Source: Halorubrum salinarum (GTDB lineage: Archaea; Halobacteriota; Halobacteria; Halobacteriales; Haloferacaceae). From it: a stretch of DNA of 64,000 nucleotides. Of this stretch, positions 39,066 to 43,516 are shown piece by piece. Position numbers and translations under genes: made by a program. The notes under the pieces were generated by a model. The model did not search any database. It was not told the origin of the DNA and saw nothing but the letters and a program-made list of their open reading frames with translations. The stretch is from contig NZ_CP053941.1 of assembly GCF_013267195.1 (NCBI RefSeq), positions 1,426,001-1,490,000 of the forward strand, in the 5' to 3' direction. The stretch's first letter is position 1. Each line of letters begins with the position of its first letter.

Positions 39066-40580
39066 TCAGACATAGCGGTCGACCTCCGCGTCCAGCGCCT
39101 CGCTCGCGTCGGCGAGCGCGTCGCGCTCGGCCGTCAGCGCGGCCTCGTCTCCCTCGATCCCCGCCTCGGCGCCGGCGAGCGCGTCGGCGACCGCCTCCGG
39201 GGCCGGTCCCCCGGCGGAGTCGCGGCTCGCGACGCTTTCGGCCGGGTCGAGCGCCGACTCCACGTCCTCGCGGCTCACGTACGCGGAGAGGGGCTCGCCC
39301 GTCACCTTTCGAGCGGCCTCGTCAACTTTTGCGGCCGCCGCGGCCGGCGAGTCGTCGTCCGCGACCGTCTCCGCCGCGGTCGCGACGATCTCGTGGGCCG
39401 TCCGGAAGGGGAGCCCGCCGGTCGCGAGCAGGTCGGCGACGCCCGTGGCCGTCGAGAACCCCTCCCCGGCGGCCGTCGCGAGCGCGGCCTCGTCCCACTC
39501 CGCGGTCGCGACCGCGCCCGCGGCGACCTCGGTCGCCTCCCGCACGTCGCCGGCGATCTCGAAGACGCTCGCGTGAGCGCGCTGGAGGTCGCGGTTGTAG
39601 GCGCGCGGGAGCCCCTTCAGCAGGCTCAGGGTGCCGGTCGCCTCGCCGATCGCGTCGCCCGCCACGCCGCGGGTCAGCTCCAGCGTGTCGGGGTTCTTCT
39701 TCTGGGGCATGATCGAGGAGGTGGACGAGTAGGCGTCGGAGAGCTCGACGACCCCCTTGTTCGAAAATACGATCAGGTCCTCCGCGAGCCCCGACAGCGT
39801 CGTCGCGAGCGTCGCGAGCGCGCTCGCCGACTCCGCGAGGAAGTCGCGGGCGGAGGCGGCGTCCATCGAGTTGCGGACCGTCCCGTCGAAGCCGAGCAGC
39901 GCCGCGGTGCGGTCGCGGTCGACGTCGAACGGCGTCCCGGCGAACGCGGCCGCGCCGAGGGGCGACCGGTTCACGCGGTCGTACGCGTCGAGCAGGCGCT
40001 CCGTGTCGCGCGCGAGCCCGCCCTCGTACGACAGCAGATAGTGCCCGACCGTCGTCGGCTGGGCCGGCTGGAGGTGGGTGTACCCTGGCATCACCGTCTC
40101 CGCGTGCTCCTCGGCGACCTCGACGAGCGCCTCGCGGGCCGCGACCGTCGCCTCGGCGGCGTCGAGCAGGTCCTCGCGCAGCCGGTACCGGATGCACGTC
40201 GCAACCTCGTCGTTGCGCGAGCGGGCGGTGTGCATCCGGCCGCCGTCCGGGCCGATCCGGTCGATCACCGCGGTCTCGATGGCCTCGTGAACGTCCTCGC
40301 CGCCGGGGAGTTCGCCGTGCCCGGCGGCCTCGACGGCGTCGAGCGCGCCGAGGATCTCGCCCGCGACCGCGTCGTCGACGATCCCCTGCTCCGCGAGCAT
40401 GACCACGTGCGCGCGGTCGACCGCGAGGTCGGCCTCGAAGATGGTCGCGTCGGCCGCGAGGCTCGACAGGAACTCGCGGGCGGGGCCGCCGCTGAAGCGG
40501 TCGCGGCGGACGGCGGTGTCGCTCCCGCCGCCCGCTCCGCCGTCGGCGTCCGTCGCGGCGTCGGGATCGTCGTCGGTCAT
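39066..40580 (-). CDS. argH: ArgH, argininosuccinate lyase
   Basis: Splits argininosuccinate into arginine and fumarate. 504 residues of the fumarase/aspartase superfamily: DLAVDRAHVVMLAEQGI, GGRMHTARSRNDEVATCIRYRL with the TxRSRND motif, MPGYTHLQPAQPTTVGHYLL holding the catalytic His, STSSIMPQKKNPDTLEL with the mobile signature loop and catalytic Ser, and KGLPRAYNRDLQ. The N-terminal 30 residues are acidic and halophile-specific. The start at 40578-40580 lies directly after the argG stop, so the two are one transcript. It ends 222 bases before the argW gene. Confidence 0.96.
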   Translation of the reverse strand: MTDDDPDAATDADGGAGGGSDTAVRRDRFSGGPAREFLSSLAADATIFEADLAVDRAHVVMLAEQGIVDDAVAGEILGALDAVEAAGHGELPGGEDVHEAIETAVIDRIGPDGGRMHTARSRNDEVATCIRYRLREDLLDAAEATVAAREALVEVAEEHAETVMPGYTHLQPAQPTTVGHYLLSYEGGLARDTERLLDAYDRVNRSPLGAAAFAGTPFDVDRDRTAALLGFDGTVRNSMDAASARDFLAESASALATLATTLSGLAEDLIVFSNKGVVELSDAYSSTSSIMPQKKNPDTLELTRGVAGDAIGEATGTLSLLKGLPRAYNRDLQRAHASVFEIAGDVREATEVAAGAVATAEWDEAALATAAGEGFSTATGVADLLATGGLPFRTAHEIVATAAETVADDDSPAAAAAKVDEAARKVTGEPLSAYVSREDVESALDPAESVASRDSAGGPAPEAVADALAGAEAGIEGDEAALTAERDALADASEALDAEVDRYV

Positions 40581-41819
40581 CTACTTCCCGTCGTCCGTCG
40601 CGTCCGGGTCACCGGATCCGTCGGTGGCCAGTTCGGGCTTCGAGACGCTCGCTTTCACGTCGTTCGCGAGGCGCTCCTGGAGCCCGTGGTACTTCGCGAC
40701 GCCAGTCGCGTCGGACTGGGCGATGCCCGCCACGTCCTCGGTGTTGAACGAGGCCATCTCCTCGGAGTAGACGGCGTACTCGGAGTCGCGCGCGACGACG
40801 CGGCAGTCGCCGCCCGAGACCTTCACCGTCGCCGTGCCGGTGACCACGTCCTGCGTCTCGTCGACGAAGGCGTTCAGCGCGTCGACGACGGGCGCGAACA
40901 CGAGCCCCTCGTAGGCCTTCTCGGACCACTCCTGCTCGATCCCCTTCTTGAACGAGCGCTCGTTCTTCGTCAACACGAGGTCTTCGAGCGCCTGATGCGC
41001 GGTCAAGAGGACGGTCGCGGCCGGGTGCTCGTAGTTCTCGCGCACCTTCAGCCCGAGCATGCGGTCCTCCATCACGTCGGTGCGCCCGACGCCGTAGCCG
41101 CCGGCGTACTCGTTGAGGTGCTGGATGAGCGGGACCGGGTCCATCGCCTCGCCGTCGACCGCGACCGGGACGCCCTCCTCGAACGTCACCTCGATGGTGG
41201 TCTCGCCCTCGGGCTCCGCGGTCCACTCGTAGATGTCCTCCGGCGGCTCGTAGTCCGGGTTCTCCAGCTTCCCGCCCTCGACCGCGCGCGACCAGATGTT
41301 CTCGTCGATGGACCAGACGCCGCCGTCGCCGGCCTCGACGGGCAGGTCCTTCTCGGCGGCGTAGTCGATCTCCCACTCGCGGGTGAGGCCCAGCTCGCGC
41401 ACGGGGGCGATCACTTCGAGGTCGGAGCCGCGCCAGACCGCCTCGAAGCGGAGCTGGTCGTTGCCCTTCCCCGTACAGCCGTGGGCGATGGCGTCACAGC
41501 CCTGCTCCTCGGCGACGCCGAGGATCGCCTCGGCGATGACCGGGCGCGCGAGGGCGGTGCCGAGCGGGTAGCCCTGGTAGCTGGCGTTCGCCTTCACCGC
41601 GTCGAAACACAGGTCCGCGAACTCCTCCTTCGCGTCGACGACGTGGATGTCGAGTCCCAGCGCCTCCGCGGTCTCTTCGGCCTCGTCGAACTCCTCGGTC
41701 GGCTGGCCGACGTCGACGTTGACGCCGATGACCTCGTCGTAGCCGTACTCCTCTTTCAGTAGCGGTACGCAGACCGTGGTGTCGAGTCCCCCGCTGAACG
41801 CGAGTGCAACGCTCGTCAT
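40581..41819 (-). CDS. argG: ArgG, argininosuccinate synthase
   Basis: Condenses citrulline and aspartate using ATP. 412 residues: the PP-loop ALAFSGGLDTTVCVPLL at residues 5-21, VIGVNVDVGQP, NASYQGYPLGTALARPVIAEA, IAHGCTGKGNDQLRFE, ELGLTREWEIDYA, YGVGRTDVMEDRMLGLKVREN. A promoter box TTTAAGGG (41843-41850, minus strand) is 24-31 bases before the ATG at 41817-41819, giving a leaderless start. Just upstream lie a terminator-like hairpin with T-run (41871-41896) and a short Arg-rich frame (41956-42084) that may relate to its control. argH follows immediately. Confidence 0.96.
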   Translation of the reverse strand: MTSVALAFSGGLDTTVCVPLLKEEYGYDEVIGVNVDVGQPTEEFDEAEETAEALGLDIHVVDAKEEFADLCFDAVKANASYQGYPLGTALARPVIAEAILGVAEEQGCDAIAHGCTGKGNDQLRFEAVWRGSDLEVIAPVRELGLTREWEIDYAAEKDLPVEAGDGGVWSIDENIWSRAVEGGKLENPDYEPPEDIYEWTAEPEGETTIEVTFEEGVPVAVDGEAMDPVPLIQHLNEYAGGYGVGRTDVMEDRMLGLKVRENYEHPAATVLLTAHQALEDLVLTKNERSFKKGIEQEWSEKAYEGLVFAPVVDALNAFVDETQDVVTGTATVKVSGGDCRVVARDSEYAVYSEEMASFNTEDVAGIAQSDATGVAKYHGLQERLANDVKASVSKPELATDGSGDPDATDDGK

Positions 41820-41842
41820 TACCAGAGTACACCCGGCCTACA

Positions 41843-41850
41843 CCCTTAAA
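41843..41850 (-). promoter_or_regulatory. argG promoter TATA-like box
   Basis: TTTAAGGG on the minus strand, 24-31 bases before the argG ATG, preceded by AAACCGCTGAA as possible BRE. It lies downstream of the terminator-like hairpin, so argG can be transcribed without reading through it. Confidence 0.65.
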
Positions 41851-41870
41851 TTCAGCGGTTTCAATACTGT

Positions 41871-41896
41871 AAGAAAAAGGCGAAGCGGCCGCTCGC
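41871..41896 (-). terminator. Hairpin plus T-run between the Arg-rich ORF and argG
   Basis: On the minus strand GCGAGC-GGCC-GCTTCGC folds into a short stem with one bulged T, followed at once by CCTTTTTCTT. It would end transcripts that come from the upstream promoter at 42107-42116. Confidence 0.6.
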
Positions 41897-41955
41897 GGAA
41901 CGCGGAGTCGAGACTCTTCGGAACGGATCGGCGCGAACGCGACGAGAGGTGAAGG

Positions 41956-42084
41956 TTACTGGCCCGAAGGGCCTCGTCGTCGCGCCGCGCCGGAGGCCGG
42001 TCGCGGCGGTCGGACGTCTCGTCGCGGTCGCAGGGCTCGTCGGCCTCGGAGAAGGGCGGCGTCGAGACGAGCCGCTGCGGTCAT
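41956..42084 (-). CDS. Candidate 42-codon Arg-rich leader peptide upstream of argG
   Basis: Short reading frame from ATG (42082-42084) to TAA (41956-41958). It encodes 42 residues, 12 of them arginine; 11 of the 12 Arg codons are CGA, a codon seldom used in neighbouring genes, including a run of three CGA at 41974-41982. A promoter box GTTTTATACC (42107-42116) lies 23-32 bases before the ATG. A hairpin GGCCC-TTC-GGGCC (41962-41974) overlaps the end of the frame, and a terminator-like hairpin follows at 41871-41896. This is the layout of an attenuator leader for an arginine gene. Against it: argG has its own promoter, and a shifted frame over the same bases shows G/C-biased third positions, though it lacks a start. 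No family recognised. Confidence 0.45.
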   Translation of the reverse strand: MTAAARLDAALLRGRRALRPRRDVRPPRPASGAARRRGPSGQ

Positions 42085-42106
42085 CACGTGTACGTACCCG
42101 ATCTCC

Positions 42107-42116
42107 GGTATAAAAC
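42107..42116 (-). promoter_or_regulatory. Promoter of the Arg-rich short ORF
   Basis: GTTTTATACC on the minus strand is the best TATA-like box in the 360-base gap and is at leaderless distance from the ATG at 42084. No gene on the plus strand would use it. Confidence 0.6.
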
Positions 42117-42178
42117 TGTTCCGCACCGCTCGACCGTCGCAAGGCTTGCCGGACCGGTTCCAGAGGGCGTCCGCCGGA

Positions 42179-43516
42179 CTACAGCGCCTCGCGGTACGCC
42201 GCCAGCGTCTTCTCGACGTCCTCCTCGGTGTGCGCGTAGGAGGTGAACTGGCACTCGAACTGGTTCGCGGTGAGGAACACGCCGCGGTCTTTCATCTCCT
42301 GCCAGAACACGCGCTCCCAGCGGTCGGTCGCGGCGTCGGCCACGTCGGCGCCCGTCTTCGGGCAGGCGTCGTACCGGGCGCAGTCGGGGTCCTGCCGGCA
42401 GCCGCCCGCGCAGCAGGCGTCGACGTCGTCGGGCGCCTCGCGGGTGAACACCGTCTTGAACATCGAGTCGGTGCCGACGACGGTGTACTCCGGCGCGCGC
42501 TCGGCGCAGATCTCGGCGATCCCCTCGCGGAGCTTCCGGCCGAGGCGGTTGACGTGCTCGTACACGTCGTTCTCGGCGGCGTACTCCAGGCCGGCCTTCC
42601 CGGCGGCCATCGTCACCGGATGCCCGGAGAAGGTGCCGGACTGGAACACCTCGCCCGCCGGGGTGAAGCCCTCGATGATCTCCGCCTTCCCGCCGATGGC
42701 GCCGACGGGGAAGCCGCCGCCGATGATCTTGCCGAACGTCGTCACGTCGGGGGTGACGCCGAACTTCGACTGCGCGCAGCCGAGGCCGCCCACCCGGAAC
42801 CCGGTGATCACCTCGTCGAAGATCAAAAGCGAGCCGTGGTCGTCACAGAGGTCCCGCAGCGTCTCGTGGTAGCCGTCGATCGGCATGACGATGCCCATGT
42901 TAGCGAGGATCGGCTCCACGAGGACGGCGGCGATGTCGTCGCCGTGCTCCGCGAACACCTCCTTGGCCGCCGCCGGGTCGTTGAACGGGATCGGCAGGGT
43001 GTGCTCGGCGAACGACTCGGGGATCCCCGCCGTCGACGGGTGCGCGTCCCCCGGCGACCCCTCGACGAGCGTCGACTCCTGCGCGCCGTGGTAGCCGCCC
43101 TGCATCACGACGATCTTGTCGCGGTCGGTGTGGCCGCGGGCGAGCCGCACCGCCGACACCGTCGCCTCCGTGCCGGAGTTGACGAAGCGGATCGACTCCA
43201 CGCTCGGAACGTGGCGGGCGACGAACTCCGCGTGTTCGACCTCGACCTCCGTGGGCGCGCCGTACATGGGCCCCTCCGCGACGTGCGACTGGACCGCCGC
43301 CTCGACCGGGTCCGGGAGGTCGTGGCCGTACAGCAGAGGGCCGTACCCCATCACCCAGTCGACGTAGCGGTTGCCGTCGGCGTCGATCACGTGGCCGCCG
43401 TCGCCGCGCTCGACGAAGAACGGATGCGGCATCGTCGCCCGGACGGAGGAGTTGACGCCGCCCGGCATGACCGACAGCGCGCGGTCGTACAGCCCGCGCG
43501 AGCGCTCGTGGTTCAT
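42179..43516 (-). CDS. hemL: HemL, glutamate-1-semialdehyde 2,1-aminomutase
   Basis: PLP enzyme forming 5-aminolevulinate for tetrapyrroles and B12-type cofactors. 445 residues: [19 protein letters not shown] at the N-terminus, [58 protein letters not shown] with the PLP Asp, and the active-site lysine in [19 protein letters not shown]. Near the C-terminus (residues 368-385) there is an insertion with five cysteines, [18 protein letters not shown], that is not part of the usual fold and may bind metal. The start at 43514-43516 was chosen over a frame extension that lacks homology. Confidence 0.95.

Follow-up and report, generated by a model that had tools for sequence, protein, structure and literature searches.

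Control of amino acid genes by the translating ribosome is a textbook mechanism of bacteria. The ribosome-mediated attenuators of the trp, his, leu, pheST, and ilvB/ilvGMEDA genes carry runs of cognate, often rare, codons in their leaders, and argG is, to our knowledge, not among the classical bacterial targets. A terminator hairpin followed by a T-run defines the terminator version of the bacterial mechanism, and not attenuation as such. In fungi, the arginine attenuator peptide is encoded by an upstream open reading frame (uORF) of arg-2/CPA1, and this conserved peptide arrests the ribosome at high arginine. A full-text search of the open literature, the coverage of which is incomplete so that absence is not proof, found no leader-peptide attenuator in archaea.

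The locus described here was identified in a stretch of 64,000 nucleotides from Halorubrum salinarum, referred to below as the window, where a short leader ORF precedes the argG gene. It shares with the bacterial attenuators a short leader ORF, cognate rare codons near the stop, hairpins around the stop, and a cognate gene downstream. In contrast to them, it is served by an archaeal RNA polymerase and ribosome, the leader has no 5' untranslated region (5'UTR), the stop codon lies in or beside a hairpin, a G+C-rich terminator hairpin is not supported in the window, and one clade has a second promoter for argG. As judged from its sequence, the argG leader would work like a bacterial attenuator, while falling outside the terminator version. 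With the fungal system it has in common a short, arginine-linked uORF before an arginine pathway gene, but the haloarchaeal leader keeps its codons and a hairpin and has no conserved arrest peptide. In our view, the argG leader probably senses arginine in cis as a ribosome-mediated attenuator, with the short leaderless ORF of an archaeon as its basis.

All elements of the locus are encoded on the minus strand of the window, in the order of a first TATA box, the leader ORF, a stop hairpin, the segment CTCGTCGCGTTCG, a T-run, a second TATA box, and argG. The leader promoter (P1) has the TATA box TTTTATA (42109..42115) at leaderless distance from the leader ATG at 42083, with a purine-rich, BRE-like GCGGAAC just 5' of it, and its transcript is expected to start within a few nucleotides of this ATG. 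The leader ORF (41955..42083) encodes MTAAARLDAALLRGRRALRPRRDVRPPRPASGAARRRGPSGQ in 42 codons and ends with the stop codon TAA (41957-41955). Twelve of the codons specify Arg, and 11 of these are CGA, including two CGA pairs and one triple. The hairpin GGCCC-TTC-GGGCC is found at the leader stop (41961..41973). It is followed by the segment CTCGTCGCGTTCGCGCCG (41929..41946), which both folding and alignment indicated to be complementary to the run of Arg codons (CGACCGCGACGAG), and by the T-run TTTTTCTT (41871..41878), where a short leader RNA putatively ends. The second promoter (P2), with the TATA box TTTAAG (41845..41850), is the predicted source of a leaderless argG mRNA. The presumed target, argG (40581..41819, with its ATG at 41819), encodes argininosuccinate synthase and is directly followed by argH (39066-40580).

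An earlier note on this DNA had proposed a possible arginine attenuator from the letters of the window. Its description of a promoter at leaderless distance, its codon counts for the CGA-rich leader, and its placement of the leader upstream of an arginine biosynthesis gene were all correct, and its doubt that argG has a separate promoter was well founded. The hairpin that it placed over the stop codon does exist, except that in the window the stem ends just 5' of the stop. It had further described a second hairpin with a T-run, of which the T-run was recovered but the hairpin was unsupported in the window, as the 102 nt leading to the T-run folded worse than shuffled sequences (z +1.97). The whole window leader folded mildly better than shuffles (z -1.55), and its predicted fold included pairings of GACGAG with CTCGTC. 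No clear terminator switch appeared when the window leader was folded with a blocked ribosome footprint, and an Rfam search of positions 41700-42300 returned no match up to E = 1, including riboswitch and T-box families. Separately, a candidate second copy of the leader at C1:213291 was rejected as a chance match within a long helicase-like ORF.

The distribution of the leader was examined in 176 argG loci of 44 genera, which comprised 80 named haloarchaeal loci, 95 loci from non-Halorubrum genomes across the class, and the window. A leaderless ORF with Arg codons close to its stop preceded argG in all 176 loci of the class Halobacteria, so the comparison across haloarchaea that the earlier note had called for came out in favor of the leader. 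Its length ranged from 23 to 51 codons (median of 30), and a TATA-like box occurred at the same spacing before it in 166 of the loci. The initial choice of each leader was scored by Arg content, and a few of the loci were assigned or read manually. A mechanical rule that treated leaders and controls alike was therefore applied: a TATA box and 15-60 codons with at least four Arg, at least two CGA, and an Arg content of at least 12%. This rule was passed by 154 of the 176 regions upstream of argG and by only four of the 192 control regions, taken upstream of pheS, trpC, hisG, argS, ilvB, leuA, pheA, and carA, and the leader is thus not a product of chance. Under a stricter earlier rule, 102 of the 176 leaders passed (the window failed), compared with none of 144 controls. 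The concern that the CGA runs are a shadow frame of Asp-rich coding sequence was not sustained, as stops interrupt the +1 (GAC) frame in 151 of the 176 loci; in the window, this frame opens with a stop and offers no start codon ahead of the Arg run. In two loci (L118 and L135), the usual leader stop at the hairpin was lost and the frame continues until another stop is reached; the hairpin itself was kept.

Among 45 genera compared, the leader was missing in just one, a deep-branching lineage. In the genome of this lineage, G021, which belongs to the same order, the leaders of both argG and ilvB were missing (L210 and L329), and this absence may date the origin of the two. Outside the class, 39 argG loci taken from further families within the phylum showed no such leader.

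Leaders of the same kind were also found at two other amino acid genes. Upstream of ilvB, 22 of 24 genomes encoded a leaderless short ORF ending in I-V-G-A/V or similar. Its codon usage was biased to rare codons, where GTA accounted for 55% of the late Val codons (2.3% in argG) and ATT for 53% of the Ile codons (4.5% in argG), and its stop codon sits inside a GGGG/CCCC pairing. These leaders (L330-L352) include, for example, one that ends in MRRRSTAAAHASVPGAVAPIIVGV before its stop. The genome of the window has an ilvB leader of its own (L338), upstream of G000:C1:158669-160336 on the minus strand. Upstream of pheS, 13 of 24 genomes encoded a leaderless ORF ending in GFGFFF (L234-L253), with endings of AFEPFFD or AFRPFFA in some Halorubrum, and the pheS leader was apparently lost in the genome of the window. 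A word close to CGGAACCGYTAAC was also conserved about 60 nt before pheS (L234-L255), and it was kept even where a Phe leader was lacking (L237, L246, L248, and L255).

In the haloarchaeal genomes scanned, no cognate leader was found upstream of trpC, hisG, argS, trpS, leuA, pheA, or carA, and the regions upstream of argS and carA held no convincing Arg leader. Hence, the strongest argument for amino acid sensing is that the leaders at ilvB and pheS carry codons cognate to their own genes while these other genes have none, a pattern predicted by amino acid attenuation and not by chance. In bacteria, too, pheS and ilvB are targets of such leaders. The attenuation reading of the earlier note gained support from both, apart from its terminator, which was unsupported in the window. 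In Haloferax volcanii, a study of transcription start sites (TSS) described uORFs in 5'UTRs of 150-250 nt; none of them precedes argG (PMC4983044 Table 2), which counts against the attenuator reading. Its uORF genes included trpS as well as pheS, the latter with an ORF of 26 amino acids in a mapped long 5'UTR without an additional TSS (PMC4983044 Table 2). These uORFs are likewise short ORFs in long haloarchaeal 5'UTRs, although that study draws no cognate-codon or regulatory link. The 26-residue pheS ORF is a candidate counterpart of the GFGFFF leader.

The features retained in the argG leaders are codons and an RNA hairpin. CGA made up 60% of the Arg codons in the leaders, whereas in 80 argG genes its share was 1.1%. 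Arg occupied 36.5% of the last 12 leader codons, and across the 44 genera it was most frequent at codons -4 to -8 relative to the stop. In an alignment of 37 Halorubrum leaders, nine Arg positions were always CGA and a tenth was CGA in 35, and the frame was never broken, so that the conservation the earlier note had wanted checked in close relatives is in place. This invariance of CGA may be due in part to RNA pairing. The gaps in these leaders were all of 3, 6, or 9 nt, while those in the spacers were of 10 nt. Codons between the CGA positions swapped amino acids freely, with a pooled pN/pS of 1.2, and the leader is therefore not a conserved protein. A stable stem spanning the stop was predicted in 127 of the 176 loci, compared with 19% of shuffles. 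The stop hairpin covaries, with many different stems that include GGGCC/GGCCC, GGCCC/GGGCC, GGGGTC/GACCCC, and GACGGGC/GCCCGTC, and different genera read its arm in different frames, with all three represented. When the family alignments were analyzed with RNAalifold, little consensus structure emerged other than the helix in Halorubrum and, in one family, a weak hairpin at the stop; poor alignment of the spacers is the probable cause.

These observations bear on whether the nascent peptide itself could be the sensor, in which case an Arg-rich peptide would stall the ribosome near the stop at high arginine and block argG. The C-terminus is indeed Arg-rich and close to the stop, and endings such as RRPRPGL, RRRPAL, and RRRPGR are recurrent. 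However, the recurrence of these endings follows from reading the GGGCC hairpin in different frames, the residues drift, it is CGA as a codon and not Arg as such that is preferred, and the leaders of ilvB and pheS finish in unrelated cognate residues. Peptide arrest is thus regarded as very unlikely. Given a hairpin arm read in three frames along with drifting residues, it is the codons and the RNA that are kept, and not the peptide.

The argG loci fell into two promoter architectures, to which the named loci were assigned by taxon and inspection. The two-promoter group included 114 loci (families f1, f4, f7, and f9, with the window among them), of which 113 had a TATA box for argG itself and 97 had the T-run. 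The single-promoter group included 62 loci (f2, f3, f6, f8, and relatives), where the argG TATA box was found in none and the T-run in five; of the 34 such spacers checked, only two contained a TATA-like word anywhere. With no promoter-like box at the usual place before argG in this group, the gene is most simply expressed from the leader promoter, with the leader acting in cis, and a transcript shared by the leader and argG is implied by sequence in all 62 loci. In the clade of the window, the separate promoter of argG means that the leader cannot be the sole control. A GGTTAGC motif was additionally conserved 5' of the T-run and the argG TATA box in the two-promoter families f1 and f4 (e.g., L098-L100, L107, and L115), and it is possibly an operator or an RNA element.

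The two-promoter arrangement would also suit a stand-alone gene for a small RNA or a small protein that acts in trans and lies beside argG by descent, since in the clade of the window the T-run could mark the end of the leader RNA and argG is equipped with a promoter of its own. Such a gene appears quite unlikely when set against the presence of the leader at argG in every one of the loci, the lack of a separate argG promoter in the other clade, and the absence of protein-like conservation among the non-Arg residues.

Complementarity between the Arg run and the RNA shortly past the stop differed among the groups. In the single-promoter clade it was in excess (z -1.53, SE 0.26), and the ilvB leader demonstrated the same excess (z -1.18, SE 0.21). 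It was weak in the clade of the window (z -0.26, SE 0.19; -0.59, SE 0.14 with a longer search window) and not clear in the pheS leader (-0.18). The excess in the single-promoter clade, as well as the GACGAG/CTCGTC pairings of the window, might be taken to suggest a structured RNA element in which the CGA repeats serve as arms for pairing and the reading frame is open by accident. This explanation is highly improbable, as the ORF starts at leaderless distance, its indels are multiples of three, and its frame is kept throughout the class, while the leaders of ilvB and pheS switch to their cognate codons and no Rfam family was matched.

Under ribosome-mediated attenuation, ribosomes entering at the 5' end of the leader RNA would synthesize the Arg-rich peptide. 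A shortage of charged arginyl-tRNA, above all of the species that reads the rare codon CGA, would slow the ribosome on the Arg codons. Going by usual footprint sizes, a ribosome decoding the last Arg codons in its A site would cover the Arg run together with the hairpin at the stop; masking them would alter the pairing of the RNA downstream, and argG expression would go ahead. With ample arginine, the ribosome would get to the stop and depart, the structures would form, and argG expression would be cut. Three elements of this scheme are inferred: that the ribosome stalls, in which direction expression responds, and how the output is produced. In the clade of the window, the output would probably be a choice between termination at the T-run and readthrough into argG, added to the transcripts from P2. 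In the single-promoter clade, a single transcript would be controlled through either termination or access to the argG start.

The same sensing of Arg codons could instead act on argG translation through access to its start, and not on transcription termination. Such an output, a variant of the attenuation proposed above, is possible but less likely than not. It would fit the rarity of the T-run in the single-promoter clade and the unstructured, CA-rich stretch that precedes the argG ATG there, but in the clade of the window the T-run is conserved and a leaderless argG promoter bypasses the leader. In Haloferax, the coupling of termination to reinitiation fades beyond 30-40 nt (PMC12548453). 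The spacings between leader and argG, at 58-190 nt, exceed this range, and termination-reinitiation is therefore unlikely; an output at translation would need a route through RNA structure. Alternatively, attenuation could operate through factor-dependent termination of uncoupled transcription by FttA, which is likely the archaeal polarity factor (PMC12548453).

On a broader scale, we see about an even chance that haloarchaea possess a general and ancient form of amino acid attenuation, which would use leaderless leader peptides and a stop hairpin at argG, ilvB, and pheS, would have evolved within the class independently of bacteria, and would possibly depend on FttA and not on terminator hairpins. 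Class-wide leaders of cognate rare codons at three loci would mean that archaea either evolved attenuation or share it, and such leaders would bear directly on the coupling of transcription and translation in archaea.
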